Shown here piece after piece: positions 7,586-55,009 of a stretch of DNA of 64,000 nucleotides (positions are counted from its first letter, which is position 1; each line of letters begins with the position of its first letter). The position numbers and the translations under genes are program-made. Source of the stretch: Bacteroidales bacterium (GTDB lineage Bacteria; Bacteroidota; Bacteroidia; Bacteroidales; UBA932); contig JAFZUX010000004.1 of the NCBI GenBank assembly GCA_017618115.1, forward strand, positions 39,059-103,058. Direction: 5' to 3'. Below the pieces are notes generated by a model. The model made no database searches. It had not been told where the DNA came from and saw only the letters and a program-made list of their open reading frames with translations.

Positions 7586-7630
7586 AAGTTTTAGTTCAAA
7601 CAGTTATGAGCAAAAATTATGCTAAACGGG

Positions 7631-7658
7631 AAAACCGGCCCCTTTTTAGCCGTTTTTA
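7631..7658 (-). terminator. Possible terminator of nrdDG
   Basis: An inverted repeat (AAAACCGGC pairing with GCCGTTTT, one bulged C, 9-10 base loop) overlaps the nrdG stop codon. Read on the minus strand it ends in a short T-run. The placement suits termination of the nrdD-nrdG transcript, but the T-run is short, so this is tentative. Confidence 0.4.
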
Positions 7659-8113
7659 GGAGGGAAATGGTATTCTGTGAGGGATTTATCCTTACCAACA
7701 AAGAAAAACTTCTGGTTGGTGTTTGGAGAGCGCAGAGGCCCCTTCTCCTCAATGTAAGGACCTATCTTAATGAAGTCAAAATTGCTCAGTGAGATGCTTG
7801 GATGAATCTCTTCAAGACCTGAATACCAGGCGGTTTTTATCTCCTTAAAATTGTTCTTTATGAAGGCGGCCAGAGAATTGACCGTAGCAGGCTCCTGGTC
7901 TCCGCCCATAAAACAGATGCAGGTTATATCTGATTTGTATCTCTCAACTAAGATGGAGAGAAACTTTTCATCCAACAAAACTCCTTCGTCCTTCCAAAGC
8001 CAAGGGCTATGGCACCCCTTGCAATGGTTAGGACAACCGGAGATGTTGAGTGCAAGAGTTACCTCGTCAGGAATTTCCTGACATACCACATCAAAATTAT
8101 AACACTTGATCAC
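7646..8113 (-). CDS. nrdG: Anaerobic ribonucleotide reductase-activating protein (radical SAM)
   Basis: Generates the glycyl radical on NrdD by reductive cleavage of S-adenosylmethionine. It is 155 residues, the normal size for a minimal NrdG. The 4Fe-4S motif CxxxCxxC is C27, C31 and C34 in SGCPNHCKGCHSPWLW. MGGDQEP is the family's GGE/GGD SAM-binding motif. It follows nrdD on the same strand with a 9-base gap, so the pair is translated from one message. Confidence 0.92.
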   Translation of the reverse strand: MIKCYNFDVVCQEIPDEVTLALNISGCPNHCKGCHSPWLWKDEGVLLDEKFLSILVERYKSDITCICFMGGDQEPATVNSLAAFIKNNFKEIKTAWYSGLEEIHPSISLSNFDFIKIGPYIEEKGPLRSPNTNQKFFFVGKDKSLTEYHFPPKNG

Positions 8114-8122
8114 TGTTGTAAA

Positions 8123-10318: not shown

Positions 10319-10363
10319 AGTGTGAACTCTTTCTTATATTTAATTTTTAGGTTTGTCTCGTTT

Positions 10364-10384
10364 CGCAATTAAAAAAGAATTGCG
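10364..10384. promoter_or_regulatory. Inverted repeat, possible operator for nrdDG
   Basis: A perfect inverted repeat CGCAATT-N7-AATTGCG lies immediately downstream of the nrdD -7 element, where the transcription start should fall. Position and symmetry fit a dimeric repressor site or a leader hairpin. It does not match the NrdR-box consensus I know. Function is inferred from position only. Confidence 0.4.
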
Positions 10385-10389
10385 CTGTA

Positions 10390-10422
10390 CAAAAATAAGA
10401 ATTAAGAAAAGTGGCGTGCAAA
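10390..10422 (-). promoter_or_regulatory. Bacteroidota-type promoter for nrdD
   Basis: Read on the minus strand: TTTG at 10422-10419, a 21-base spacer, then TATTTTTG at 10397-10390. This matches the primary sigma-factor consensus of Bacteroidota (TTTG-N19-21-TAnnTTTG). The start codon lies about 70 bases downstream. Confidence 0.6.
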
Positions 10423-10569
10423 AGATGAATATAAAGAAATGAACAAGTTGCTAACAATTTACCTAACTGTCTGTAAAATTGCCACTTAAGTTGTTACAAA
10501 ATAATTTATCAACTTAGGATATCAACTTTAAAAAAAATTGCTATATTCGCATCCCGTTACATGCGTTTT

Positions 10570-10656
10570 GGAGAGATGGCTGAGTGGTCTAAAGCGCCCG
10601 TTTGGAGGGCGGGTTGGCGGGTAACCGTCACTAGGGTTCGAATCCCTATCTCTCCG
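10570..10656 (+). tRNA. tRNA-Ser (anticodon GGA)
   Basis: 87 nt folding as a class II tRNA: acceptor stem GGAGAGA/TCTCTCC, anticodon stem CCCGT/GCGGG closing loop TTGGAGG (anticodon GGA), a long variable arm (TTGGCGGGTAACCGTC region), and T-arm TAGGG-TTCGAAT-CCCTA. Discriminator G. The 3' CCA is not encoded; the next bases are CAAAAA. It reads serine codons UCC/UCU. A TATATTCG element at 10542-10549 is a plausible -7 box. Confidence 0.95.
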
Positions 10657-10666
10657 CAAAAATAAA

Positions 10667-10706
10667 GAAGATGTAAGCCACAAGCATGCTTGTGGCTTAC
10701 ATCTTC
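10667..10706. repeat. Perfect 40-bp palindrome after tRNA-Ser(GGA)
   Basis: Two perfect 20-base arms (GAAGATGTAAGCCACAAGCA and its reverse complement) with no spacer, 10 bases after the tRNA. A TTTTT tract follows at 10710-10714, so it could act as the tRNA's terminator. One arm (GTGGCTTACATCTTCC) is shared with the C module at 42751-42807, so it is also part of the composite repeat. Confidence 0.85.
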
Positions 10707-10747
10707 CAATTTTTGCAAGGGCCGCTGCGGCGAGCAGTAAGGGAATG
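10692..10747 (-). repeat. Composite repeat module C, copy 1
   Basis: GTGGCTTACATCTTCC, ATTTTTGC, GGGCC and CTGCGGCGAGCAG occur here in this order. They occur again in the reverse complement of 42751-42807 with nearly the same spacing. No coding potential is apparent. It lies between tRNA-Ser(GGA) and module B. Confidence 0.7.
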
Positions 10748-10779
10748 CGCAGCGCAGCGAGCACAATCCCATCATTAAT

Positions 10780-10888
10780 CCGTGCAACGGAAATTCCTGA
10801 TAGCCAATTATTTAGCAATTTGCCTGGTAGCGTTTTTGCGGAGAGGTAATTACATAAAATGCACATTACCAGCAACATACGTTGCACG
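10780..10888 (-). repeat. Composite repeat module B, copy 1 (TIR CCGTGCAAC)
   Basis: About 109 bp bounded by CCGTGCAAC and GTTGCACG. The core TTTGCCTGGTAGCGTTTTTG plus CGGAGAGG and AAAATGCACATT match the reverse complement of the two copies beside the RAYT gene (41605-41714 and 42573-42682). It is diverged relative to those two, which are almost identical to each other. Non-coding. Confidence 0.85.
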
Positions 10889-10916
10889 ACATTCTAGGTC
10901 GGATAAAGAGAAACGA

Positions 10917-10983
10917 GGGTTATCTCCCGGCAGGCCTGCGGGGAGCTATTGAGGGGCTCTCCTCTGCCTGCCGAGGATAACCC
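10917..10983 (-). repeat. Composite repeat module A, copy 1
   Basis: 67 bp beginning GGGTTATC and ending GATAACCC, with inner complementary blocks CGGCAGG/CCTGCCG, able to form a long hairpin or cruciform. The reverse complement matches 41520-41586 over its full 67-bp length with a few substitutions. It lies between module B and the end of cstA. GC content is clearly above the surroundings. Confidence 0.85.
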
Positions 10984-11012
10984 AATTCAGTATGTGCACG
11001 GATAGCCCTATC

Positions 11013-12503
11013 CTATAAGGTAAAATCCTCCAGGTGCTTCTTTCCGTAGAGTTTCATGTGGATGCATACCGCCGTGGTAATGAGCACGGTAAGGGCTGCT
11101 GCACAGATTGCTCCGGTTGTATAGTCCAAACCTATCATCTGTTTTGAGAAGAACAAGAAGTCTGAGCAGATGAAGGTCATAAAGATTGCAGGTATCAGAG
11201 AGACAAAGTAGTACGGCACTCCGCCCTTCTGAACTTTGCAGTGTCTTAAATAGAGGAATACAGTTATTGTCCAGAGTGTAAATACTGCAAGAGTTTGGTT
11301 TGCCCAGGCAAAGTATCTCCAGAGTATGTCATACTTCATAAGCGTTATGGCATAGCCGATTATGAACATCGGGATACAGATATAAAGACGCTTGAGTATG
11401 CTCTTCTGTTCCAAATGCAGGAAGTCTGCAATAATAAGTCTTGAACTTCTGAAGGCTGTATCTCCGGATGTTATAGGTGCTGCAACAACTCCCAAAAGTG
11501 CCAGTATTGCTCCAAACTTTCCGAGTGTTGTGTTGGTGATTTCATTCACTACCCAGGAGGCATCCTGTCCGTGATCCGCCAATGCAGCGTTCAGTCCTGA
11601 AAGGCTGTTTTCCAGACCGTTATAGCCCTTGAAGAATGCCATTGCAGCGGCTGCCCAGATAAGAGCAATTATACTCTCTGAAATCATTGCTCCGTAGAAA
11701 ACAGGGCGGCTCTCCTTTTTGTTTCTAAGACAGCGTGCCATCATAGGAGACTGCGTTGCGTGGAATCCGGAGATTGCTCCGCAGGCTATGGTAATGAACA
11801 TTGTTGGAATGATTGGGAAATCTTTTGCGTTGGTTTTAAAGTTGGATAAGGAGTCCCAACCGTTGATTTCCGGTATCTGAAGGTTACCGGTAAAGAGAAC
11901 TACCAGTATTCCCAATGCCATGAAAATGAGGGCAATTCCAAAGATAGGATAGACATTGCCAATTATCTTATCTATCGGGAGAAGAGTAGCTATAATATAG
12001 TATGCAAAGACAATGTAGAGCCAGATGCTCTTGTCCCATCCGGTCATAGTTGAAAGTATGCCGGCAGGGCCCAGCATAAAGACTGCACCAACCATCATCA
12101 TCATTACCACGGTAAAGAGTCTCATCACCTGTTTTGTGGTAAGACCCAGATACTTACCTATAATCTCCGGCAGGCTCATTCCGTTGTGGTTAAGTGAGAT
12201 TACGCCTGCAACAAAGTCATGCATTGCACCCATAAATATGCCTCCTAGTGTAATCCACAGAAAGGCAGCAGGTCCGTAGGTTGCACCCAGTACGGCACCA
12301 AAGATAGGACCTAGACCTGCAATGTTAAGTAGCTGAATCAGAAAGGTTTTCCAGCGCGGCATTGGAATGTAGTCCACGCCGTCATAAAGATTTTTTGACG
12401 GAACTTGAATGTCATTTTTAATACCGCATACCTTCTCCAGAAATCTTCCGTAGGTAAAGTATGCAATTACCAGTGCCGCAAGGCATATAACAAAAGTTAT
12501 CAT
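11013..12503 (-). CDS. cstA: CstA-family peptide/pyruvate transporter (short form)
   Basis: An integral membrane protein of 496 residues with ~13 hydrophobic segments. The N-terminal block (YFTYGRFLEK, DYIPMPRWKTF, NIAGLGPIFGAVLGATYGP) and FMGAMHDFVAGVISLNHNG are the CstA signature. E. coli CstA is about 700 residues; Bacteroidota commonly have this shorter form. Family members import peptides or pyruvate during carbon limitation; the substrate here is not known. Its start overlaps the stop of the Nudix gene (ATGA at 12500-12503), so translation is probably coupled and it belongs to the tail of the ATP synthase transcript. Confidence 0.88.
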   Translation of the reverse strand: MITFVICLAALVIAYFTYGRFLEKVCGIKNDIQVPSKNLYDGVDYIPMPRWKTFLIQLLNIAGLGPIFGAVLGATYGPAAFLWITLGGIFMGAMHDFVAGVISLNHNGMSLPEIIGKYLGLTTKQVMRLFTVVMMMMVGAVFMLGPAGILSTMTGWDKSIWLYIVFAYYIIATLLPIDKIIGNVYPIFGIALIFMALGILVVLFTGNLQIPEINGWDSLSNFKTNAKDFPIIPTMFITIACGAISGFHATQSPMMARCLRNKKESRPVFYGAMISESIIALIWAAAAMAFFKGYNGLENSLSGLNAALADHGQDASWVVNEITNTTLGKFGAILALLGVVAAPITSGDTAFRSSRLIIADFLHLEQKSILKRLYICIPMFIIGYAITLMKYDILWRYFAWANQTLAVFTLWTITVFLYLRHCKVQKGGVPYYFVSLIPAIFMTFICSDFLFFSKQMIGLDYTTGAICAAALTVLITTAVCIHMKLYGKKHLEDFTL

Positions 12504-13219
12504 AGACTTTGGTTTATATTATCATTTATAATGGAGCGGAATGTATAGACGGTGGGATGGCGGGAAGGGAGGTTGGTTCTGTTGAGGCCGCCGTCATTTA
12601 GAAAACCGGTGGAGAGCATCTTGCGGGCAAAGTTGCGGCGGTCAAACTTCTTGCAATAGACGGCTTCATAAAGAGTCTGGAGTTGTGACATGGTAAACTC
12701 TTCAGGCAGAAGGAAACGCCACAACGGATTAAAGACCAAAGATTTACGCAGAGCCTCCATTGCCTTTTCAAATATCTCCTTGTGGTCAAAGGCCAGTGAA
12801 GGAAGGTCATCTACGGAGAACCATTTTGCCTCTGCGGCATCATCTGCGGCAACAGCATTCACATCTCTTGTAAGAACAATGAATGGAACCGTTACGACCC
12901 TTTGACGGGGATCTCTGTTTGGAGTGGAAAAGACTTCAATCTGCTCAAGATAAAGAGCTTGCAGGCCTGTCTCCTCTTGCAGTTCTCTTACGGCTCCCTG
13001 CTCTGCAGTCTCATCGGGATTTACAAAACCGCCCGGAAAAGCCCAATAATCTTTATAAGGATCTGCACCTCTTTTGATGAGCAACACCTTCAAAGGACTC
13101 TCTTTTCCGTCCGGGGAAAAAGAGAAAACAATGCAGTCTGCGGTCAAGGCCGTCTGCGGATATTTATATACCCAGGGATAAGCCTCTCCTTTTCTATATT
13201 TGAAAACTGCATGTGCCAT
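12500..13219 (-). CDS. Nudix hydrolase with C-terminal winged helix (NrtR-like)
   Basis: 239 residues. The Nudix box begins at G63-G64 (GGFVNPDETAEQGAVRELQE) with the metal-binding core R78-E-x-x-E-E83 intact. The C-terminal ~80 residues (FTMSQLQTLYEAVYCKKFDRR, then NFARKMLSTGFL) match the winged-helix domain of NrtR-type regulators, which sense ADP-ribose or sugar compounds and repress NAD or sugar genes. Because the catalytic residues are present it might hydrolyse rather than only bind. Position between atpG (9-base gap) and cstA (4-base overlap) links energy metabolism genes. The ligand is unknown. Confidence 0.85.
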   Translation of the reverse strand: MAHAVFKYRKGEAYPWVYKYPQTALTADCIVFSFSPDGKESPLKVLLIKRGADPYKDYWAFPGGFVNPDETAEQGAVRELQEETGLQALYLEQIEVFSTPNRDPRQRVVTVPFIVLTRDVNAVAADDAAEAKWFSVDDLPSLAFDHKEIFEKAMEALRKSLVFNPLWRFLLPEEFTMSQLQTLYEAVYCKKFDRRNFARKMLSTGFLNDGGLNRTNLPSRHPTVYTFRSIINDNINQSL

Positions 13220-13228
13220 TGTATCAAG

Positions 13229-14149
13229 TTATTGCACGCTGCCGGCAACAATATCCAGAAGTTCTGCGGTAATGGCCTGCTGGCGGGATTTGTTGTAAAG
13301 AACTGTGAGTTCCTGAATCAAATCTTCAGCGTTATCAGTTGCAACCTGCATAGCCACAGTTCTTGCGGCATGCTCGCTTGCGTAAGAATCTGCCAGACAG
13401 GTGTAGAGTTTTTGCTTAAGCACCTGCGGAATCAGAGAGGTAATCACCTCAGAAACGGAAGGCTCAACAATGTAGTTGTGGAAGAATCCTTCCGGAGAGA
13501 GAGACTCCTCCGCCTTGTAAGAAGAGAGATCCACAGGCAGATAGCCAATCCTCTCAACCTTCTGAACAGCAGGAGATTTGAAATGCTGGTAAACAACGTA
13601 AACCTTATCGTACTCTCCCGCTTTGTACTTATCCATCAACTCTGAAGCGAGTGCAAAAATCTTTTTGTAATCCGGCTTTGCCGCCAGGGACTGAAGCGTA
13701 AACTCCTCCCCCTCTACTTTAACTGAAGTGATGCAGCTGAGCGCCATCTTCTTTGCCGCCTCCTCTATCTTTTTCCCGATAGGATAAACGGTTAAAAACT
13801 TGTCATCTATATGAAGATCCAAAATCAAAGAGGTGAACTCTCTTAAGACGTTGTAGTTGAAAGCACCGCACAAAGAGGAGTTGGAAGAGAAGGCCACAAC
13901 TGCAACCTTACTTACACTCTTCTTTGCATCTTCCTCTTCTTTAAGAACATACGGAGATGAGAATACTGTCTTTCCGGCCAAAAAGTTGGAGACAATTTTA
14001 TCCAGATTCTGCTGGTAAGGAACCATAGCAGTAATGATGGACTGCGCCTTATGAAGCTTGGCGGATGAAACCATCTTCATTGCGGAGGTCACCTTACGTG
14101 TTCCCTGAACAGAACCAATCCTTGTCTTTATCTCCTTGAGTGAAGCCAT
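13229..14149 (-). CDS. atpG: F-type ATP synthase subunit gamma
   Basis: The central rotating shaft of F1. 306 residues. The N-terminal helix MASLKEIKTRIGSVQGTRKV-TSAMKMVS and the C-terminal helix with MQVATDNAEDLIQEL and LYNKSRQQAITAELLDI form the conserved antiparallel coiled coil. It is the last ATP synthase gene in the operon, six bases after atpA. Confidence 0.95.
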   Translation of the reverse strand: MASLKEIKTRIGSVQGTRKVTSAMKMVSSAKLHKAQSIITAMVPYQQNLDKIVSNFLAGKTVFSSPYVLKEEEDAKKSVSKVAVVAFSSNSSLCGAFNYNVLREFTSLILDLHIDDKFLTVYPIGKKIEEAAKKMALSCITSVKVEGEEFTLQSLAAKPDYKKIFALASELMDKYKAGEYDKVYVVYQHFKSPAVQKVERIGYLPVDLSSYKAEESLSPEGFFHNYIVEPSVSEVITSLIPQVLKQKLYTCLADSYASEHAARTVAMQVATDNAEDLIQELTVLYNKSRQQAITAELLDIVAGSVQ

Positions 14150-14155
14150 ACTCTG

Positions 14156-15742
14156 TTACTGAACAAACTGATTTACCGTCATTTGTGCAACCTTCTCAAT
14201 TTTCTGGGTAATATCGTCATTAATGACACCCTTGCGGAGTTCATCCAAAACATCCTTCTGGTTATTAAGGCGCAGATGTTCAATGAAGGTCTTTTCAAAC
14301 TTCTGTATATCGTTTATATCTATATCCTTAAAGAGTCCGTGAGTTCCGCAGTAAAGAATTGCAACCTGCTCCTCAACAGGCATAGGCGAGTACTGAGGCT
14401 GAATAAGCAGACGGGTGTTCTTTCTTCCCTTGTCTATTGCCTGAGCAGTAACCTTATCCATCTCACCGCCGAACTTTGTAAAGGCCTCAAGTTCTTGATA
14501 CTGCGCCTGGTCTATCTTAAGCGTACCGGCAACCTTCTTCATAGATTTTATCTGAGCGTTACCGCCTACACGGGAAACGGAGATACCTACGTTGATAGCG
14601 GGACGGTTACCCTGGTTGAAGAGATCCGTATCCAGGAAGATCTGTCCGTCCGTAATAGAAATTACGTTGGTTGGAATATAAGCGGAAACGTCACCCTCCT
14701 GAGTCTCAATAATAGGAAGCGCAGTAAGCGAACCGCCTCCTTTAACTTTACCCTTTAAAGAATCCGGCAGGTCATTCATCTGCTCTGCAACCTCCTGTTG
14801 ATCAATTATTTTTGCAGCTCTTTCCAAAAGTCTTGAGTGGAGGTAGAAGATATCTCCCGGGTATGCCTCACGTCCTGAAGGACGGCGCAGAATAAGTGAA
14901 ACCTCACGATATGAAACCGCCTGTTTTGAAAGGTCATCATAGACAACCAGCGCATCTCTTCCGGTATCTCTGAAGTATTCGCCTATGGCAGCTCCGGCGA
15001 ACGGTGCAAAGTACTGAAGTGCGGCAGGATCTGCAGCGGTAGCGCAGACAACTATGGTGTAGTCCATAGCACCCTTCTCTCTAAGTGTCTCAACCAATGA
15101 GGCTACCGTAGAACCCTTCTGACCTATTGCAACATAGATGCAATAGACCGGCTTGCCCTCTTTGTGAGCGTTCTGCTGGTTGATGATGGTATCAATTGCA
15201 ATTGCAGTCTTTCCGGTCTGACGGTCTCCGATTATAAGCTCTCTCTGTCCTCTTCCAATAGGAATCATAGAGTCTATAGCCTTTATACCGGTCTGAAGCG
15301 GCTGGTTCACCGGCTGACGGAAAACAACTCCCGGAGCCTTTCTCTCCAGAGGCATCTCAAAGAGTTCACCCTCTATACTTCCCTTACCGTCAAGTGGTTG
15401 GCCAAGCGGGTTAATAACTCTGCCCAGCATACTCTCACCTACTCTTATAGATGCAATTCTCTTAGTTCTCTTAACGGAAAAGCCCTCTTTGATGTTATCA
15501 GTAGGACCAAGGAGCACGGCTCCCACATTGTCCTCCTCCAGGTTCATCACAACGGCCATCTCTCCGTTTTCAAACTCCAGAAGTTCACTCGCTTCCGCAT
15601 TGCGCAAGCCGTAAATACGTACCACTCCGTCACTTACCTGAAGAACGGTTCCAACCTCATCCAGTTGAACCTTTCCCTCAATCCCCTCCAACTGTTTACG
15701 CAAAACATCGGAAACTTCACTTGCTTTAATATTAACTGCCAT
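14156..15742 (-). CDS. atpA: F-type ATP synthase subunit alpha
   Basis: The regulatory nucleotide-binding subunit of F1. 528 residues. Walker A GDRQTGKT at 172-179, and the DELSEED-region equivalents and C-terminal helical domain are complete. [20 protein letters not shown] is the N-terminal segment that contacts the delta subunit. The start is two bases beyond the atpH stop. Confidence 0.97.
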
Positions 15743-15744
15743 AA

Positions 15745-16305
15745 TTAAACTATTCTTCTGTTTTTATCCAGTAGCTGCTGACGTATCTGACGAAGTTTGC
15801 TGGCAATGCTCGCATCCATTCTGAAGTCATCTACATCAATTATGAAACCTCCTTCTATAGAAGGGTTTACACACTTGTACAGCTCTATTTTCTTACCCAG
15901 CACGGAGGATGTTTTGGAGATAATTTTCTCCTCCATCTCCTTGCTTAAAGGTATAGCCGTAGTAATCCTTACCACGGCAATGTTCTTCTTCTCACGGTAG
16001 AGAGTCTGATAGTTGAGCGCGGAAGCTCTCAAATAATTTTCTCTGCGATTCTCAATAATGATGCTGTAAAATCTTTGCACCGTATCGTTTGCCTTATCAT
16101 CACCCGTAAGTGTTGATGAGAGCAGAGACAATTTATCCTGCCGGGAGAGAAGAGGGTCTTCCAATGTACGTGTAAGTGCCGGATTCTGTTTAAGACACTC
16201 CAAAAGAAGGCCCATCTGGGAATAAACCTCCTCTTCTACGCCTTTCTCTAAAGCGTAGTCTAACAATGCCTTAGCATACCTTACCGCCAATACTCCAACG
16301 TCCAT
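15745..16305 (-). CDS. atpH: F-type ATP synthase subunit delta
   Basis: Peripheral-stalk subunit joining the b subunits to the top of F1 (OSCP family). 186 residues. The N-terminus [20 protein letters not shown] is the family signature (RYAxALFxxA), and the C-terminal end [16 protein letters not shown] is the expected G-G-x-x-x-x-x-D-x-x-x-D-x-S motif. It sits between atpF and atpA as usual. Confidence 0.95.
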
Positions 16306-43744: not shown

Positions 43745-44668
43745 CTATCTGCTCTCTTTATCCTCAACGTTCAAAGTTGCATGAGGCACCAGTTTTAGTC
43801 TTTCTTTTGGTATCAATTTACCCGTTTTACGACTGATTCCATAGGTCTTGTTTTCAATTCTAACAAGCGCTGCCTCAAGGTTTTGGATAAATTTGTATAA
43901 CCTACTAGCAAACTGAGCACTTTCCTCCTTTGAAAGAGCTGAAGCACCCTCTTCAATAACAGTAAATGATGGAGAGGTATCTTCCACACCATTGCTGGAA
44001 CTATGAGTAATCGCGCTACGGAGCATCTCGTACTCATCCTTTGCCTTTGCAAGTTTGTCGAGAATAAGTTCTTTAAACATTTTTAAATCAGCATCGCTGT
44101 AGCGAACTTTTGGGGGCTCAGGAGTTTTGGTCTTTTCAATAGGCTGTACCACAGGCTTAACTACAGGTTTTGGAGCAGGAGCTGCTACAGGCTTTGATAC
44201 AGGCTTTGGAGCCGGTGCAGGAACTGGTTTTACAACCGGTTTTGGTGCAACCTTCTTAACCTCAGGCTTTTTAGCAACCACCTTCTTTACAGGAGCCTTA
44301 ACAACTACCTTCTTTACTGGAGCTTTCTTTGCTACCGGTTTCTTAGCAACTACCTTTTTAACGGGAGCTTTCTTAACTACCGCCTTCTTTGGGGCAACCT
44401 TCTTTGGGGCAGCCTTCTTAACTACAACTTTCTTTGCAGGAGCTTTCTTTGCAGGAGCTTTCTTTGCAGCAGGCTTCTTTGCAACTACCTTCTTAGCAGG
44501 AGCTTTCTTTGCTACAGGTTTCTTTGCAACTACTTTCTTAGCAGGTGCTTTCTTTGCTACCGCCTTCTTTGCAGGAGCCTTAGCAGCAGGCTTCTTTGCT
44601 ACACTCTTTTTAACGGGGGAAGCAACTTTCTTCACGGTCTTAGCCGCTTTCTTAACTTTTGTTGCCAT
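43745..44668 (-). CDS. Histone H1-like Lys/Ala/Pro tail fused to a DksA/TraR-like domain
   Basis: 307 residues. Residues 1-~175 are almost only K, A, P and V in units such as [18 protein letters not shown], as in bacterial H1-like DNA-binding tails and AlgP. Residues ~188-307 match the cysteine-less TraR/DksA form of Bacteroidota: [19 protein letters not shown] then [14 protein letters not shown], where other DksA proteins carry zinc cysteines. The second half alone is the usual gene in this position before lspA. The tail should bind nucleic acids and might tether the factor to DNA or RNA polymerase. The repeats cause a misleading open frame on the opposite strand. Confidence 0.85.
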
Positions 44669-48162: not shown

Positions 48163-48666
48163 ATGTCAATATTGGATTTTATAATTGTTGCAATAGCTGT
48201 CATTTCCTTTCTCTGGGGAATCAGAAAAGGATTTGTGGGACAGCTTATGTCCCTTATAGGACTGATATTCGGTCTTTGGGGCGCCTCTAAACTTACGGTT
48301 CCAATCACCTCCAAGATTATGCCTCTTTTGGGGCCTAGCGTTCCGGAGGGTACGGTGAGAATAGTCATCTACATAATACTGGCCGTTCTCTTTATTATTC
48401 TCTTCAACTGGTTGGGCAGACTCCTTGAGAAAGTGATGAATCTCACCATATTAGGAGGATTAAACAAAGTGCTTGGAGCGGTATTTTCTCTCCTGAAGGC
48501 AGTTGTGGTTGCCATGATTATTGCTTCCATAATTGACCAATCACCTGAGTCATTGGGAATTAGCAAACTTGAATTTATTAAGGAGAGCAAGATCTACCCT
48601 ATTTTGGTTCATCAGGCAGAATTGTTCTTCCCGTTCATCAAGAGTTTGTTCGCCTGCGTCGTTTAG
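48163..48666 (+). CDS. CvpA family membrane protein
   Basis: 167 residues with four membrane helices and the family's start DFIIVAIAVISFLWGIRKGF and GFVGQLMSLIGLIFGLW. E. coli CvpA is needed for colicin V production and envelope homeostasis; its molecular role is unclear. It lies just upstream of the peptide-export genes, but a terminator (48679-48712) separates them, so a functional link is uncertain. Confidence 0.82.
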   Translation: MSILDFIIVAIAVISFLWGIRKGFVGQLMSLIGLIFGLWGASKLTVPITSKIMPLLGPSVPEGTVRIVIYIILAVLFIILFNWLGRLLEKVMNLTILGGLNKVLGAVFSLLKAVVVAMIIASIIDQSPESLGISKLEFIKESKIYPILVHQAELFFPFIKSLFACVV

Positions 48667-48712: not shown

Positions 48713-48728
48713 GGATAATTACAAGATT

Positions 48729-48766
48729 TTCCCCTCAAAGTATTTACGCGAATGCTTTGAGGGGAA
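48729..48766 (+). promoter_or_regulatory. Second hairpin, leader of the peptide-export locus
   Basis: A perfect 12-bp stem (TTCCCCTCAAAG with CTTTGAGGGGAA) and 14-base loop. The right arm contains the TTTG that could be the -33 box of the next promoter. It might be a second terminator (weak T-run, GTCTTTT) or an operator-like structure. Confidence 0.5.
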
Positions 48767-48786
48767 GTCTTTTACACCCAACTTTG
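48756..48786 (+). promoter_or_regulatory. Possible promoter of the peptide-export locus
   Basis: TTTG at 48756-48759, a 19-base spacer, and CAACTTTG at 48779-48786 (one mismatch to TAnnTTTG), 16 bases before the ATG of the 53-residue membrane protein. Confidence 0.45.
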
Positions 48787-48802
48787 CAACAAAAAAGAGG
48801 CA

Positions 48803-48964
48803 ATGGGAAAACTGAGACAAGAGAGAGAAAAAACATTCCAAAGATTCACGCCTGAATCGTACGGGATTGTCCCTATGAGGGGGAGAGTTACCGCACTCTA
48901 CTTTCTTCTCATTCTCCTCTGCTTTGCAATATGCATAGGCACCCTGTGCCTGTTGTTATCCTAA
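48803..48964 (+). CDS. 53-residue single-helix membrane protein
   Basis: The frame starts MGKLRQEREKTFQRF and ends with a strong hydrophobic helix (ALYFLLILLCFAICIGTLCL). AGAGG lies seven bases before the ATG. The charged N-terminus should be cytoplasmic. No double-glycine motif, so it is not an exported peptide of this system. Its position directly before the C39 transporter gene makes it a candidate immunity or accessory protein, but I recognise no family and the call rests on open frame, topology and placement. Confidence 0.55.
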   Translation: MGKLRQEREKTFQRFTPESYGIVPMRGRVTALYFLLILLCFAICIGTLCLLLS

Positions 48965-48978
48965 TTTAGTATAGGAGG

Positions 48979-49020
48979 GTACCGGGATATAATTGAGATT
49001 ATTTGGGGCTTTCCCGGTAC
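48979..49020 (+). promoter_or_regulatory. Hairpin before the C39 transporter gene
   Basis: GTACCGGGA (48979-48987) pairs with TCCCGGTAC (49012-49020), leaving a 24-base loop. It ends 12 bases before the chosen ATG and could mask or regulate translation. No T-run follows, so it is not an intrinsic terminator. Confidence 0.5.
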
Positions 49021-49032
49021 TCGTTGGAAATT

Positions 49033-51225
49033 ATGAGAAGTATTCTAAATATAAAGCAGACAGACTCTTATGACTGTGGAGCAGCATCTTTGGCGAGCGT
49101 TGCGGGATGGTGGGGAGTATATCTTCCGCTCAGCCGCTTCAGAAGAGAGTGCGGCTGCAGCAAAGAGGGTGTCACAATTCAGGGGATAATAGACGGAGCC
49201 AGAGCGGTTGGCCTAAGTGCCAAAGCTCTGAAGGTTGAGGAGAAAGAGAAACTCTCCAAAGAGGAGAAGATAAATAGACTCCGTTCCTTAAATGTTCTCA
49301 AGGCCCCTGTAATTCTGCACATTACATCGGACAAAGGAATGCTTCACTTTGTGGTTATGACAAAGTGCGTAGGAAAACGCATACACATTATGGATCCGGC
49401 TAAGGGGAGGATTGAGAAGAGATTGATTGGTGAGTTTGCACAACAATGGAGCGGATATGTAATTCTGTGTTCACCGGGGGAAGGGTTTGCAAAGAGAGAT
49501 GAAGCGGAGGGGAGATTTGGAAGAATTATAAAACTCCTGAAGTTCCACAAGAGAGAGGTAATCCTCTCTTTGGCAGGGTCTGTTGCTCTCTCCGCGGTGG
49601 GAGTCTGCAACTCCCTTCTGCTTCAGTTACTTATAGATGACGTTATCCCATCGGGAAATAGGTCACTTCTGGTTATTATATCTGCGGCCATACTGGCATT
49701 GATGCCGCTATCACTGGCGGTGAGTTACATAAGAAACCTCTATATGATCAGTTGCGGGGTGGCGCTGGATACAAGGCTGAATACCGGGTTTATGAGAAGA
49801 ATACTCTCTATGGATGCACGCTTTTTCAGAGATTACCCCAAGGGAGAGTTGGAATCCAGATTATCAGACAGTTATAAAATAAGAGCACTCGTAAATGAGG
49901 GTACGGTACAGGCGGGGGTCTGCATCACAACCTTATTAATCGTCTTAATATTACTTTTTACCTTCTATCAAAAACTTGCACTATTTCTCATACTCACTAT
50001 CCCCGCCTATATCGTTATGCTTATTCTTTCACACAGAGCAAACAAGAAAATCAGTAAAAAAATAATGTCTTCAGCCTCTCTCTATGAAGCGGATATAATA
50101 GATACCATAGAGGGAGCGGACCAGATAAGACATTTTAACATAGACCCGTCAACTCTCAGATATAACGGAAGTTATGCTACGCTGGCCCTGGAGAGTTACA
50201 GAGCCGGAAAAATCTCCAGCGCTCTGCAGCTTATGGGCAGCGGAATCTCTCAACTTATTATGGCGGTTATACTGATTGGAGGAGGTACGGCCGTTCTCTA
50301 CTCAAAGATGAGCGTGGGCGAACTCGTTTCATTTTTTACACTCAGTACGTTCTTCATCTCCCCCTTGAACGAGCTACTCCAATTAAACTCAGCGTTGAAC
50401 GAGGCACTTACGGCATCTGACAGAGTGTATGACATTACCTCCTCCCAACCGGTATATGAAGGAATCGTTACAGACTCCGTAAAAAACAAAGTAAATCAGA
50501 GGGGACTGGAACTGCAGAATGTAAGTTTCAGATATCCGGGAAGAGAAACGCTTATAGAGAACTTCAGCTGTTCTTTGCCAAACGGCTCAATAACTGCAAT
50601 TTATGGCGCAAGCGGCTCGGGAAAGAGCACTCTGGTTTCACTGTTTATGAGAGATTGGAAACCTACTGAGGGCAAAATTCTATATGGTGGTATTGATATC
50701 TATTTTTACAATCCTACAAGCTGGAGGAAAATTATTTCTGCCGCACCTCAATATTCTCACTTATTCAATGCCACCATTCTTGAAAACATTACTATGGAGC
50801 TGGGAAGCTCTCATAAAGAGATAGATGATGAGTCTTTAAGAAAGATAGCCTCAATTTCGGAGCAGATTGGGATGGAAAAGATGATTAACAGACTTCAGAG
50901 CGGAATTATGACACAGGTGGGAAAGGGAGGAGTTCAACTATCGGGAGGAGAGACGCAAAAAGTGCTGCTGGCCAGAGCGTTGTACCGCAACCCAAAGATT
51001 CTCATCCTGGATGAGACCACCTCTTTTATGGACAGTGAAAGCAGATTAAAAGTATATGATACACTACAAAAACTGAAACAAACGGGATGTTGTATTGTCT
51101 TGATTTCTCATAACAGAGATACTCTCTCCATCGCAGACCGTGCAATAGAACTTTGTAATAAAAAGACCGGTCAACTAACAAAGGCGGAATCCGGCGCGCC
51201 AATTCTGCCGGAACCTAAAAGCTAA
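49033..51225 (+). CDS. Peptidase-containing ABC transporter (C39, double-glycine leader processing)
   Basis: 730 residues from the ATG at 49033; an upstream TTG at 49003 in the same frame lies inside a hairpin and is less likely. The N-terminal C39 cysteine protease has its catalytic residues: C15 (YDCGAASLASVAGW), H105 (LHFVVM) and D121 (IMDPAKGR). A six-helix exporter domain (~155-440) and a nucleotide-binding domain follow: Walker A GASGSGKS (525-532), signature LSGGE (636-640), Walker B ILILDE (656-661). Such proteins cut precursors after a Gly-Gly leader and export the mature peptide across the inner membrane. Two GG-leader peptides are encoded directly after it and a TolC/HlyD pair follows, giving a complete predicted route out of the cell. 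Confidence 0.93.
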   Translation: MRSILNIKQTDSYDCGAASLASVAGWWGVYLPLSRFRRECGCSKEGVTIQGIIDGARAVGLSAKALKVEEKEKLSKEEKINRLRSLNVLKAPVILHITSDKGMLHFVVMTKCVGKRIHIMDPAKGRIEKRLIGEFAQQWSGYVILCSPGEGFAKRDEAEGRFGRIIKLLKFHKREVILSLAGSVALSAVGVCNSLLLQLLIDDVIPSGNRSLLVIISAAILALMPLSLAVSYIRNLYMISCGVALDTRLNTGFMRRILSMDARFFRDYPKGELESRLSDSYKIRALVNEGTVQAGVCITTLLIVLILLFTFYQKLALFLILTIPAYIVMLILSHRANKKISKKIMSSASLYEADIIDTIEGADQIRHFNIDPSTLRYNGSYATLALESYRAGKISSALQLMGSGISQLIMAVILIGGGTAVLYSKMSVGELVSFFTLSTFFISPLNELLQLNSALNEALTASDRVYDITSSQPVYEGIVTDSVKNKVNQRGLELQNVSFRYPGRETLIENFSCSLPNGSITAIYGASGSGKSTLVSLFMRDWKPTEGKILYGGIDIYFYNPTSWRKIISAAPQYSHLFNATILENITMELGSSHKEIDDESLRKIASISEQIGMEKMINRLQSGIMTQVGKGGVQLSGGETQKVLLARALYRNPKILILDETTSFMDSESRLKVYDTLQKLKQTGCCIVLISHNRDTLSIADRAIELCNKKTGQLTKAESGAPILPEPKS

Positions 51226-51229
51226 TAAT

Positions 51230-51451
51230 ATGGAAGACAAGAGGTTAATGCTGAGGGGCTTTATTAGTGTAAACGATGAAGAGCTTCAGCTCTCCGGAGG
51301 AATTTCACCGGAGACAATCAAGAAGATTGCCAGAATTATCGGATTTGTTTTGGATTTCATCTCCAGTTACAGTTCCGATTTCAACAAAGGCTACAAGAAG
51401 GGGCTTGAGGGCAAGCCGTTTTTTCAACTGATGCCAACAGCAGTAAGATAG
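51230..51451 (+). CDS. Double-glycine-leader peptide 1 (predicted substrate)
   Basis: 73 residues. The leader ends NDEELQLSGG with E at -8 and L at -4 relative to the cleavage point after G24, as in class II bacteriocin leaders. The predicted mature peptide is 49 residues, net charge about +4, beginning ISPETIKKIARIIGFV (amphipathic helix), then a polar middle with a GYKKG (GxxxG) motif and an end PFFQLMPTAVR. It starts four bases after the transporter stop. No cysteine is present in the mature part, so no lanthionine or disulfide chemistry is expected. The second ATG (M7, MLRGF) could be the true start. Activity unknown. Confidence 0.8.
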   Translation: MEDKRLMLRGFISVNDEELQLSGGISPETIKKIARIIGFVLDFISSYSSDFNKGYKKGLEGKPFFQLMPTAVR

Positions 51452-51460
51452 GAGGTTGAG

Positions 51461-51637
51461 ATGAAAGGATTTGTTGAAGTTTCAAAGAGTGAGTGCTCTT
51501 ATGTTGTAGGAGGCAAAGATTCTGAAGTAGCAAGAGTGGTTGAACTTATAGGATACGGAATCGGTGCCTTAGTAAGAGCAATCAAGAATTTCAGAGAAAA
51601 CAGGAAAAAACAGAGTATGCAACTTATTATGATTTAA
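51461..51637 (+). CDS. Double-glycine-leader peptide 2 (predicted substrate)
   Basis: 58 residues. The leader MKGFVEVSKSECSYVVGG fits the consensus closely (V-12, S-11, E-8, V-4, G-2, G-1). The mature peptide is 40 residues, net charge about +4, beginning KDSEVARVVELIGYGIGALV with a GYGIG (GxxxG) motif and a basic part RAIKNFRENRKKQ. Both leaders share the start (R/K)GF(I/V)xV, indicating one processing enzyme. A strong Shine-Dalgarno (AGGAGG, 51450-51455) lies before the ATG; such sites are rare in this phylum and suggest high expression. It follows peptide 1 by nine bases. A terminator comes 25 bases after the stop. Confidence 0.8.
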   Translation: MKGFVEVSKSECSYVVGGKDSEVARVVELIGYGIGALVRAIKNFRENRKKQSMQLIMI

Positions 51638-51662
51638 TATTCTGTTGAACCTTAGATTTTTG

Positions 51663-51692
51663 AAGGGTGGGGTGCGCCCCACCTTTCTTTTT
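51663..51692 (+). terminator. Terminator after the peptide genes
   Basis: Stem GGTGGGG/CCCCACC with a TGCG loop, extended by A-T pairs, followed by TTTCTTTTT. It separates the transporter-peptide unit from the TolC-HlyD unit, or lets part of the transcripts continue. Confidence 0.82.
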
Positions 51693-51733
51693 AATAATAG
51701 ATTATAGTGTAATATTTCATATATTTGTCGTCT

Positions 51734-53062
51734 ATGAAAAAGTTAGTGGTAATAACGTTGTTTCTCTTCTCTTCCTTCACTCTTGTTTGGGGGCAGAAGT
51801 CATCTCAATGGAGATTGGAAGATTGCATCTCATACGCAAGAGAAAACAACTTACAGGTAAAGATTGGGGAGATTGGCGTTGAGCAGTCTCAAAGGGTGCT
51901 CAATGAGAGCAAGTGGTCTATGGCTCCATCACTCAGTGCGGGGATGAGCCACAATATGAGTTGGGGAAGAAGCGTTAACCTTCAGACTCTGGAGATTATA
52001 AAGAATAAGAGGACTATGTCCACCAGCGGAAGTTTAAGCGCCTCCGCAACCGTATTTGGCGGACTCTCTAAGCAGAATTCCATTAAGGCAAACAGGACCT
52101 CTCTTCTGATTGCATCTGAACAGGTGGAGAAGATAAAGAACGACATCACAATTCAGATAACTCAGGCATATCTGCAACTGCTTCTTAGCAAGGAGATTGA
52201 GCGCTCCGCAGAGGAGAGTTGCAAGAGTATGGAGGAGCAGGTGGACCGCACCGCAAAACTGGTAGACGCGGGAAGCCAGGCATACAGCACCCTGCTTGAG
52301 GTAAAGGCTCAGCTGGCAAACGAGAAGAGCCAGCTTGTTTCCGCAAGAAACGATGTAAGAAGCAACCGCCTGAATCTTATGCAACTTCTTGATCTGCCTT
52401 CAGATATGTGGGAAACGTTTGACGTTGTGGCACCGGACAGAGACCTTGCCGCAAACGTCTATCCAACGGAGACTATGAATTCCATCTATGAGAGGGCTCT
52501 CTCACTTCCGCAGATAAAGATTGCAGAGTATGACCTTCAGAAGAGCAACTATGACTACAAGGCGGCTCGCGGCAGGCTCTACCCTTCCATCTCAGTTCAA
52601 GCGGGTTACGGCTCTTACTATTCAGACAGTCAGAGCGGCGCCTTCTTCTCTCAGTTTGATCACAACAGAAACCCTTCACTGGGATTTTCACTCAGCATAC
52701 CTATCTTCAATGCACTCTCCTATAGAATGAGCGCACGCAATGCAAAGGATGAGATTGAGAGAAACCGTCTCACCCTTCAGATGCAGAAACAGTCTCTCTA
52801 TAAGGAGATTCAGAGCGCATACAACGAGGCTTTCTCCGCACTTGAGAGGATGAGGGCGGCGGAAGAGAATATGAAATCCATACAGGAATCATTCACCTAT
52901 ACGGAGAATAAGTTCAACGTCGGAATGATGAACGCAACAGATTACAACCTTGCAAAGTCCAACCTCTTTAAGGCTGTATCTTCCTACTATCAGGCAAAAT
53001 ACCAGTATCTGTTCGAACTCAAGATTTTAGATTTTTATAAAGGAAAAGCAATAACTCTTTAA
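51734..53062 (+). CDS. TolC-family outer-membrane channel
   Basis: 442 residues from the ATG at 51734 (MKKLVVITLFLFSSFTLVWG signal peptide); a TTG nine bases upstream is in frame but less likely. The two-fold OEP repeat begins WRLEDCISYARENNLQVKIG and has long helical hairpins (AQLANEKSQLVSARNDVRSN). It should form the trimeric outer-membrane tunnel for the peptide exporter. A TATATTTG element at 51720-51727 is only six bases before the ATG, so a transcript from it would be nearly leaderless. One base separates the stop from the HlyD-like gene. Confidence 0.88.
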   Translation: MKKLVVITLFLFSSFTLVWGQKSSQWRLEDCISYARENNLQVKIGEIGVEQSQRVLNESKWSMAPSLSAGMSHNMSWGRSVNLQTLEIIKNKRTMSTSGSLSASATVFGGLSKQNSIKANRTSLLIASEQVEKIKNDITIQITQAYLQLLLSKEIERSAEESCKSMEEQVDRTAKLVDAGSQAYSTLLEVKAQLANEKSQLVSARNDVRSNRLNLMQLLDLPSDMWETFDVVAPDRDLAANVYPTETMNSIYERALSLPQIKIAEYDLQKSNYDYKAARGRLYPSISVQAGYGSYYSDSQSGAFFSQFDHNRNPSLGFSLSIPIFNALSYRMSARNAKDEIERNRLTLQMQKQSLYKEIQSAYNEAFSALERMRAAEENMKSIQESFTYTENKFNVGMMNATDYNLAKSNLFKAVSSYYQAKYQYLFELKILDFYKGKAITL

Positions 53063-53063
53063 T

Positions 53064-54299
53064 ATGACTACAACTGCAAAAAAGAAAAAGGGCGGAAAGA
53101 TTTGGTGGATTCTCAGTGCCGTACTTATTGTGGTACTGATGATTGCGTCCAAGAAGTGCGGAAAAGAGAAGGGAACCTTTGTAACCATCTCCTCTCCGGA
53201 AAGGAAAACCATTGTGGAGACAATTCCGGCAAACGGTAAGATTCAGCCTGTTACAGAGGTGAAGATATCTCCTGACGTATCCGGTGAGATTATAGAACTC
53301 CATGTTAAAGAGGGTGACTTTGTAAAGAAAGGGCAGCTGCTTATAAAGATTAAGCAGGACATCTATCTCTCTGCCGTAGACCAGGCTATGGCCTCTCTGA
53401 ATTCAGTTAAATCTTCATACAAGCAGCAGCAGGCTCAGACGCTTAAGTCAAAACAGAACTATGACCGTGCAGTAAAATTGTATGAACTGAAGACCATCTC
53501 AAAGGCTGAATATGAGAGCGCCTGCGCAGATTGGGACGTGGCTCAGCAGATGCTGGACGGAGCCCGCTACAACATCTCCAGCGCGGAGGCACATCTTAAG
53601 GAGGCCAGAGAAAACCTTCTTAAAACCACCATTTACTCCCCGATGGACGGCGTAGTCTCCAAACTGAGCGTGGAACTTGGAGAGAGAGTTGTTGGAACCA
53701 GCCAAATGGCAGGAACAGAGATGCTTAGAGTTGCAAACTTTGACCAGATGGAGGTGCTTGTAGATGTAAACGAGAACGATATTATACGCCTCAACGCATC
53801 TGACAGCGCGCAGATAAGCGTAGATGCATATCCGGGGCGTAAATTTGACGGAGTAGTAACGGAGGTTGCAAACTCCTCAAAGAACTCCTCATCCACTTCA
53901 ATAGATCAGGCAACAACATTTGAGGTCAAGGTGAGAATTCTTCCTCAGTCATACGCAGATTTAAGAGAGGCGGGAACCAATCCTTTCCGTCCGGGAATGA
54001 GTGCATCCGTTCAGATAAACACCTGCAAGGTGGAGAACGTTCTCACCCTTCCTATCTCTGCAATCACCACAAGATCAGACCTCCAGGATGTTAACTCAAA
54101 TGAGACCAAACAGTTTGTATTCCTCTATGACAAGAAAACTCAGAGCGTTCAGACATCTGTAGTAAAGACCGGAATCCAAGACCTCAGCAACATAGAGATT
54201 ACTGAGGGACTCTCAGATTCCTCAAAGGTTGTAACAGGTCCGTTCACCGCAATATCCAAAACTTTGAAAAACGGCACCAAGGTTAAAATCAGTAAGTAA
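53064..54299 (+). CDS. HlyD/MacA-type periplasmic adaptor
   Basis: 411 residues: an N-terminal membrane anchor (IWWILSAVLIVVLMIASKK), a lipoyl/barrel-sandwich half (VSGEIIELHVKEGDFVKKGQ), a coiled-coil hairpin (~105-190, QQQAQTLKSKQNYDRAVKLY), the second lipoyl half (TTIYSPMDGVVSKLSVELG), and beta-barrel and membrane-proximal domains. It would join an inner-membrane exporter to TolC. Its closest style is MacA, which pairs with ABC proteins. No other ABC permease is nearby, so the C39 transporter is the obvious partner. Confidence 0.88.
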   Translation: MTTTAKKKKGGKIWWILSAVLIVVLMIASKKCGKEKGTFVTISSPERKTIVETIPANGKIQPVTEVKISPDVSGEIIELHVKEGDFVKKGQLLIKIKQDIYLSAVDQAMASLNSVKSSYKQQQAQTLKSKQNYDRAVKLYELKTISKAEYESACADWDVAQQMLDGARYNISSAEAHLKEARENLLKTTIYSPMDGVVSKLSVELGERVVGTSQMAGTEMLRVANFDQMEVLVDVNENDIIRLNASDSAQISVDAYPGRKFDGVVTEVANSSKNSSSTSIDQATTFEVKVRILPQSYADLREAGTNPFRPGMSASVQINTCKVENVLTLPISAITTRSDLQDVNSNETKQFVFLYDKKTQSVQTSVVKTGIQDLSNIEITEGLSDSSKVVTGPFTAISKTLKNGTKVKISK

Positions 54300-54301
54300 C
54301 A

Positions 54302-55009
54302 ATGAGTTCAGAGAGTCTTATTCTTCTATTGGAGTCTGCAACGGACAGTTGCTCCGTAGCCCTTTCAAAGGGGAAGACTCTTATTGCAGAGAAGTGCTCC
54401 TTTGTGGGTAAGGCTCACGATACCCTAATGGCTCCCTTCATAGATGAGATTCTCAAAGAGAACAACGTAAAGGTTTCAGACCTTGCGGCCGTTGCCGTAA
54501 GCCAGGGGCCGGGAAGTTATATGGGGCTTAGAATAGGTGTCTCACTGGCCAAGGGAATTGCATACGCAGGCGGCTGTAAAATTATAGGAGTGAGCACTTT
54601 GGCAGCCATTGCAAGATGTGCTTTGGACAACACTTCATTCAATGCTGATCTTATTGTTCCTATGATAGATGCCGGAAGAATGGAGGTCTATACGGCAACC
54701 TTCAACTCCGTAGGAGAACAACTCACCAAGACTGAGGCAAAGATTCTTACCAAAGAGAGTTTCTCAGAAGAGATAGCAAACCACAAAGTTTTATTTGCCG
54801 GCAACGGAGTTGAAAAGTTTCAGAAACTGCTTGAGAACGAGGGCGTTGATCTTTCCAACACGCTCTTTATGAATCAAATGCCAAAGGCTTGCGGCCTTAG
54901 AGTTGAGGCAACAAAAAAACTGGAAGCAGGAGATCTTGCAGACCTTGCCTACTTCCAGCCTGAATATCTAAAAGAATTTATTCCTGGCAAACAGAAGAAA
55001 CTGCTTTAG
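54302..55009 (+). CDS. tsaB: tRNA threonylcarbamoyladenosine biosynthesis protein TsaB
   Basis: 235 residues. ILLLESATDSCSVALSKG and VSQGPGSYMGLRIGVSLAKG are the ASKHA-fold motifs of TsaB, the partner of TsaD in making t6A37 on ANN-decoding tRNAs. It starts two bases after the adaptor gene. Its last 32 bases overlap the convergent thioredoxin-fold gene. Confidence 0.92.
   Translation: MSSESLILLLESATDSCSVALSKGKTLIAEKCSFVGKAHDTLMAPFIDEILKENNVKVSDLAAVAVSQGPGSYMGLRIGVSLAKGIAYAGGCKIIGVSTLAAIARCALDNTSFNADLIVPMIDAGRMEVYTATFNSVGEQLTKTEAKILTKESFSEEIANHKVLFAGNGVEKFQKLLENEGVDLSNTLFMNQMPKACGLRVEATKKLEAGDLADLAYFQPEYLKEFIPGKQKKLL

Follow-up and report, generated by a model that had tools for sequence, protein, structure and literature searches.

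The 64,000-nucleotide window analysed here comes from a Bacteroidales bacterium (GenBank assembly GCA_017618115.1, contig JAFZUX010000004.1, positions 39,059 to 103,058 of the forward strand). It contains a compact cassette in which the gene for a C39 peptidase-containing ATP-binding cassette (ABC) transporter is followed by two small genes for double-glycine peptides, A and B. The cassette is often headed by o53, a gene for a small membrane protein. Judged from sequence, there is a slightly better than even chance that A and B form an exported, membrane-active peptide pair, which leaves the cell through the periplasmic adaptor and TolC channel encoded next to the cassette. A membrane-active pair is preferred because both peptides bear the helix-pairing motif characteristic of class IIb (two-peptide) bacteriocins. 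The unit works like a two-peptide double-glycine system; it is not a proven class IIb bacteriocin. The cassette consists of the following features:

48803–48964, + strand: o53, an open reading frame (ORF) for a 53-residue single-transmembrane (TM) protein, a candidate immunity or transporter-accessory protein.
49033 (ATG)–51225, + strand: C39 peptidase-containing ABC exporter (PCAT), 730 residues, with Pfam domains Peptidase_C39, ABC_membrane and ABC_tran.
51230–51451, + strand: precursor of peptide A, 73 residues, with a double-glycine leader, predicted cleavage after G24 and conserved Y47 and G54xxxG58.
51461–51637, + strand: precursor of peptide B, 58 residues, with a double-glycine leader, predicted cleavage after G18 and conserved [GA]31xxxG35.
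51662–51687, + strand: terminator-like hairpin of 11 pairs with a T-run, ending the C39-A-B unit, from a hairpin scan.

The predicted cleavage regions read ELQLSGG|ISPETIKK in peptide A and CSYVVGG|KDSEVARV in peptide B, giving mature peptides of 49 and 40 residues in the window; across loci, the median mature lengths are 42 for A and 43 for B. The A leader ends approximately in E-L-x-[LMIV]-x-GG, and the B leader is a canonical double-glycine leader. Mature A contains an invariant tyrosine and the C-terminal signature G[YFLI]xxG. In an alignment of 42 A sequences, the only invariant columns besides Met1 and the GG are Y47 and G54, with G58 present in at least 90%. In 39 aligned B sequences, most mature parts contain [GA]xxxG, the second glycine of which is invariant. 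Correspondingly, GxxxG occurs in 45 of 49 mature A peptides (shuffled sequences: mean 12.0, maximum 22) and in 34 of 50 mature B peptides (mean 8.7, maximum 16), and a small-xxx-small motif is found in every mature A (n = 49) and B (n = 50). The maximal helical moment calculated from sequence exceeds that of 95% of a peptide's own shuffles for 44 of 49 A peptides. Median net charge is +2 for A (range −5 to 5) and +3 for B (−4 to 6).

The window's two mature peptides lack cysteine, as do 38 of 49 A and 33 of 50 B peptides across loci; at least two cysteines occur in two A peptides and in no B peptide. The YGNG box is absent from all 49 A and all 50 B peptides. Assignment to class IIa or to the bacteroidetocins was rejected on these two counts. 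Membership of a known peptide family was likewise rejected, as searches of Pfam and NCBIfam gave no systematic match among 42 A and 39 B members.

The transporter has the domain order of a PCAT, with an N-terminal C39 domain bearing Cys-His-Asp, a transmembrane domain and a nucleotide-binding domain, and its GG-leader substrates are encoded beside it. Residues C15, H105 and D121 align with the catalytic triad of solved PCAT protease domains; the best structural match, 7n87, bears alanine at the cysteine position, and the next, 4ry2, bears cysteine. H105 and D121 are kept in 51 of 51 homologues and C15 in 50, the exception (L078) being a run of N at that position. Among solved structures, bacteriocin-type PCATs are closest to the transporter, followed closely by ComA, and no NCBIfam cut-off was reached among the 25 models listed. 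A single C39 domain was found in the source genome (1.85 Mb in 26 contigs, 89% complete).

A preliminary description of this DNA, made from its letters alone, had proposed the triad-bearing transporter, the two adjacent double-glycine precursors, a terminator after B, and a downstream TolC channel with an HlyD/MacA-type adaptor. Pfam domains and the alignment to solved PCATs bear out the transporter, the precursors and the hairpin are present as proposed, and a domain search supports channel and adaptor. Its statement that the mature peptides lack a YGNGV box and cysteines, which sets them apart from the bacteroidetocins, also stands. It made no mention of o53, of a second hairpin upstream of the cassette or of TsaB, which begins 2 nt past the adaptor.

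Conservation of the pair was assessed in 118 sampled relatives, 39 of them from the source genus. C39 homologues, with a cut-off of E up to 1e-60, were found in 65 of the 118 genomes and in 37 of the 39 genus members. The A profile matches 49 and the B profile 51 of the 118 relatives, each again including 37 of the 39 from the genus. In 37 of 37 genus loci, A and B both lie downstream of C39, no more than a few hundred bases beyond its stop codon. Statistics on A and B draw on 51 of 59 C39 loci; the remainder (L086, L091, L094, L095 and L099–L102) have a transporter of another type or lie at a contig end, and L079 and L080, C39 loci that are also of a different type, stand outside these statistics. 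A sequence pattern finds both peptides in 48 of the 51 loci; L085-A and L096-B (genome G066) were recovered by other means, and L093-A was not found.

The pair also recurs in 40 family loci held out from profile building. C39, A and B are present in 40 of 40; as these loci were picked by hand from the table of A matches, the independent part of this result is the presence of C39 and B. The GxxxG motif occurs in 40 of 40 held-out A and 34 of 40 held-out B peptides. By a distance rule, the order C39-A-B holds for B in 40 of 40 loci and for A in 38 of 40, two A frames starting far upstream. The homologues expected by the preliminary description thus exist beside C39 transporters within the genus and beyond it. 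Both short frames are also under coding constraint: a comparison of the four closest loci gives dN/dS values of 0.15 (A), 0.09 (B), 0.12 (C39) and 0.17 (o53), and the mean dN and dS of the mature parts are 0.037 and 0.27 for A, and 0.025 and 0.40 for B. Purifying selection and conservation together rule out A and B as chance ORFs.

Among 249 genomes of the family, A is found in 115, once per genome (at 1e-5), across 9 of 25 genera. Strong A matches in 393 genomes of the order are confined to three genomes of the same family, with four weak matches remaining (1e-4 to 0.0096). Among 395 genomes of the phylum, the only strong B match lies in the window's own genome; of six weak B matches, five fall within frames of 634–722 residues and were judged to be chance. 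The 118-genome sample contains eight more weak A matches at other sites (E 0.001–0.007). The cassette is carried by one Bacteroidales family, usually at one fixed chromosomal place.

Two of the weak A matches from outside the family, L126 (G128) and L129 (G371) in other Bacteroidales families, are double-glycine ORFs with the A-like C-terminus (E/D)GLxDG(Y/W), and in L129 a second double-glycine ORF adjoins the A-like one. Because these ORFs share the A-like C-terminus, A may be one member of a broader and more ancient type of peptide. A related ending, approximately EYWPxIxEGFxRGW, matches the C-terminal signature of peptide A in 48–50-residue single-TM proteins without a double-glycine leader at L137–L142 (G009, G023, G006, G025, G007 and G016; positions about 2050–2360; the L137 frame has 78 residues). 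A helicase-like gene, presumably of the DEAD-box type, lies nearby in four of these six loci. In L144 (G008, contig C119, 1647–2733), four clustered short ORFs have EELEKVNGG-like leaders and two of them have several cysteines in the mature part; the C39 cassette of G008 is on another contig. One relative has a named source, the reticulum of a water buffalo.

Descent of the cassette has been vertical for the most part, and some exchange has taken place. The pairwise distances for C39, A and B correlate with those of IleS (Spearman 0.48–0.58; 0 of 200 permutations as high), as do those of TolC, adaptor, TsaB and CvpA (0.60–0.64). In trees of 31 genus loci, 14 of the 21 well-supported C39 splits also appear in the IleS tree and 5 contradict it; the figures are 12 of 18 with 4 contradictions for TolC and 6 of 13 with 4 for A+B. 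For the group L046, L048, L052 and L053, the C39 tree and the A+B tree both disagree with IleS, which would fit an exchange of the whole cassette at once. A mobile element as carrier was rejected: A and B have no plasmid match, A, the peptide used in the phage search, has no phage match, and the site is fixed in most loci.

The surroundings of the cassette in the window comprise the following features, the names cvpA and TsaB, like IleS and those of other flanking genes, being taken to apply from the look of their sequences:

48163–48666, + strand: presumably cvpA.
48728–48767, + strand: terminator-like hairpin of 18 pairs between cvpA and the cassette, from the hairpin scan.
51734 (ATG)–53062, + strand: TolC-family outer-membrane channel, from a domain search; a neighbour, probably used, not dedicated.
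53064–54299, + strand: periplasmic adaptor of MacA/RND type, from domain and structure-relative searches; a neighbour, probably used, not dedicated.
54302–55009, + strand: presumably TsaB.

As a rule, the cassette lies between cvpA and a TolC-adaptor-TsaB cluster that is older than the cassette. The conserved neighbourhood, as far as typed, comprises IleS, CvpA, TsaB, HIT, GreA and RibF. Over 7.2 kb, the hairpin scan returned 13 terminator-like sites, where shuffled sequences gave 6.2 on average. A hairpin with a T-run follows B in 30 of 50 loci, compared with 7 of 150 shuffles, and lies inside the C39-A-B stretch in 7 of 50; the hairpins 3′ of B in different loci are unlike each other in sequence. 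Elsewhere in the window, a protein encoded at 43745–44668 on the − strand has a long N-terminal KKAPAKK-repeat, like a histone H1 tail, and a C-terminal half that we take to be TraR/DksA-like.

The preliminary description had joined transporter, peptides, channel and adaptor into a single dedicated four-part route. Use of the channel and adaptor remains plausible, but their dedication does not hold, as cluster and cassette each occur without the other. In 19 of 47 genomes of other families (counted by hand), adaptor and TsaB are adjacent and no C39 match (E ≤ 1e-60) lies near; in 10 of 12 such loci examined, TolC is found directly upstream of the adaptor. Within the family, five genomes (G010, G044, G050, G060 and G068) have TolC-adaptor-TsaB without the cassette. 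Two of these show empty sites, with cvpA about 105 nt from tolC and no C39, A or B between: G010, of the same genus, has no C39 match at E ≤ 1e-60, and G044, of the same family, has a C39 of another type on another contig. No C39, A or B is present in G001 either, but the contig stops at its TsaB, and G001 was therefore not counted as an empty site. Conversely, TsaB directly follows C39-A-B without TolC and adaptor in six loci (L081, L145, L146, L147, L149 and L150), in the last five of which it begins 521–558 bases past the end of the C39 match. The adaptor and channel are therefore likely but not dedicated partners of the exporter, and the unit departs in this respect from a type I secretion system with a dedicated adaptor and channel.

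This separability lends weight to an alternative in which cassette and TolC-adaptor are mere neighbours, the peptides leaving by another adaptor and channel while TolC and the adaptor serve a MacB-type pump. MacB-type proteins are the usual partners of MacA-type adaptors; the best solved relatives of this adaptor are MacA, and MacB-type domains occur in 118 of 118 genomes, with seven matches in the source genome. Set against this, TolC and adaptor both follow the cassette in 34 of 40 held-out loci (the contig of L163 stops too early) and in almost every genus locus of sufficient length. Since juxtaposition is the rule, it is plausible that the peptides use both neighbours. Furthermore, L059, L076 and L078 differ from the window in that the entire stretch from C39 through TsaB is turned round with respect to cvpA-ileS. 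Partial distance correlations with C39 in 29 genus loci are higher for TolC (0.71) and adaptor (0.56) than for TsaB (0.42) and CvpA (0.31), although over 39 loci TsaB is highest (0.55), followed by TolC (0.40) and adaptor (0.26). Exit by another route is a possibility that falls somewhat short of even. In the window, the terminator-like hairpin at 51662–51687 stands between B and the TolC cluster, and in L104 (G020) five other genes spanning about 9.6 kb separate B from tolC; the inserted ORFs (6853–16198; 838, 176, 356, 1152 and 538 residues) resemble, by size alone, sigma/anti-sigma factors and SusC/D.

As for o53, 36 of 49 testable loci have a small TM ORF just ahead of C39 according to a script, or 31 after subtraction of five CvpA tails; two of the 51 loci, at contig ends, were left out, and the antisense control gave 0 of 49. 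o53 itself matches nothing in NCBIfam, and nothing in Pfam above the cut-off. In L071, L073 and L074, a stretch like the o53 N-terminal motif (PxW..L) starts the C39 protein instead. Because this stretch seems fused to the transporter in three genomes, the pattern would be as compatible with an accessory of the transporter as with a role in immunity.

From this anatomy we infer cleavage, export, pairing, membrane action and a target for the two peptides, as follows. C39 proteins are established to cleave after GG and then to export the product. Here, both leaders are most likely cut off after the GG by the C39 domain; the ABC part would export the mature 49- and 40-residue peptides, whose probable way out is the adjacent MacA-type adaptor with TolC. 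Once outside, A and B probably act jointly: each would form an amphipathic helix, the two helices would pair by way of the GxxxG-like motifs, and the pair would insert into membranes, as two-peptide bacteriocins do.

Several observations weigh against this proposal. The helical moment of B exceeds that of 95% of its own shuffles in just 28 of 50 cases. Only one to three members touch bacteriocin or pheromone models, and weakly (ComC 3e-5; BlpC 4e-4); the other weak matches are to the CTB-family bacteriocin (0.008; three B and one A) and to lactococcin G-beta (0.009; 1 of 39). There is no universal immunity gene, with an o53-like TM ORF in 31 of 49 loci. Competitive bacteriocins are seldom kept by almost every species of a genus, and their mature parts are seldom constrained; both features, found here, make a core role in signalling or in the envelope possible.

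On that last ground, A and B could instead be conserved, pheromone-like intercellular signals or part of the envelope or surface of the producer itself, and not weapons. Presence of the pair in 37 of 39 genus genomes, one A match per genome in 115 family genomes, purifying selection on both mature peptides, the mostly vertical descent of C39, the lack of plasmid and phage matches noted above and the lack of a universal immunity gene all favour such a role. It is nonetheless doubtful: the typed neighbourhood contains no sensor or regulator (the unlabelled flanking ORFs were not searched), and amphipathic, GxxxG-like helices in both partners suit a membrane-active pair better than receptor ligands. 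A further proposal, tentative to the same degree, is that the two-peptide export unit has become part of the core genome of this Bacteroidales lineage and serves the producer's own population, in signalling, self-recognition or the envelope, rather than or besides killing. If so, A and B would represent a class of exported Gram-negative peptides of which no description was found.

That the pair is a genuine class IIb bacteriocin, to which o53 would give immunity, is unlikely and the least probable of the alternatives. Pairing, double-glycine leaders, a C39 exporter, GxxxG motifs and a single-TM protein in the unit all speak for it, and CbnZ, an immunity protein of 42 residues with a single TM segment, is a precedent reported in the accessible part of PMC8538875. 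Yet o53 was not found in 18 of 49 loci, and the apparent fusion of a stretch like its N-terminal part to C39 would suit a transporter accessory better. The membrane-active pair remains the preferred reading, and it poses a testable question, namely whether a near-universal pair is a weapon, a signal or a structural element. Both peptides are short enough to synthesise, and their conservation would allow two peptide families to be defined and looked for in metagenomes.

Class IIb bacteriocins use a C39 ABC exporter, are unmodified, have an immunity membrane protein encoded in the unit and reach their full antimicrobial effect only as a combination of the two peptides. Like A and B, those of the lactococcin G and plantaricin EF/JK type, in so far as the available source text describes them, are encoded as adjacent pairs of double-glycine precursors and carry GxxxG-like motifs. 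A GxxxG or GxxxG-like motif in each peptide belongs to the definition of the class in the accessible text of PMC8538875, and the same criterion is applied in the part available of PMC13289728. A and B, two different peptides encoded together, each bear such a motif; they do not match curated class II bacteriocin models, which are not a formal definition of the class. Unlike the class IIb bacteriocins of Gram-positive bacteria, A and B have a Gram-negative host, no systematic sequence match, no proven immunity gene, and near-universal, mostly vertical inheritance in their genus.

The Cdz system of Caulobacter (CdzABCDI) is described, in the text available of PMC5380434, as a Gram-negative two-peptide toxin with a glycine zipper, an ABC transporter and adaptor, a TolC encoded elsewhere and a small membrane immunity protein. 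The A/B unit is similarly a Gram-negative two-peptide system with an ABC transporter. On the same partial account, and compared by description rather than by CdzC/D sequence, Cdz differs in belonging to another phylum, in its peptides of 84 and 86 residues and in the three-TM protein CdzI.

Closer in lineage are the bacteroidetocins, likewise Bacteroidales double-glycine peptides with a peptidase-domain ABC transporter (PMC6671954, in part). According to the accessible text, they have at least two cysteines, and their loci encode a 5-TM protein and mostly a thiol oxidoreductase; A and B are a cysteine-free pair in a unit without those genes. Bacteroidetocin producers inhibit themselves, and the same text reports no immunity protein, so the absence of one is no bar for A and B. 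Bacteroidales clusters for ribosomally synthesised and post-translationally modified peptides (RiPPs) also place a PCAT beside GG-motif precursors, sometimes with a membrane fusion protein and an outer-membrane protein (PMC10352776, as far as accessible). Nine such clusters bear modifying enzymes (radical S-adenosylmethionine proteins, YcaO, LanC and LanM), in contrast with the interval between cvpA and TsaB in the window, where no modifying-enzyme gene is found. A search of the open-access literature, with subscription papers and preprints outside its scope, returned no description of such a pair. In the portions of that literature available, the double-glycine peptides of Bacteroidales are bacteroidetocins and modified RiPPs, beside which A and B stand as a cysteine-free pair with a reproducible signature.

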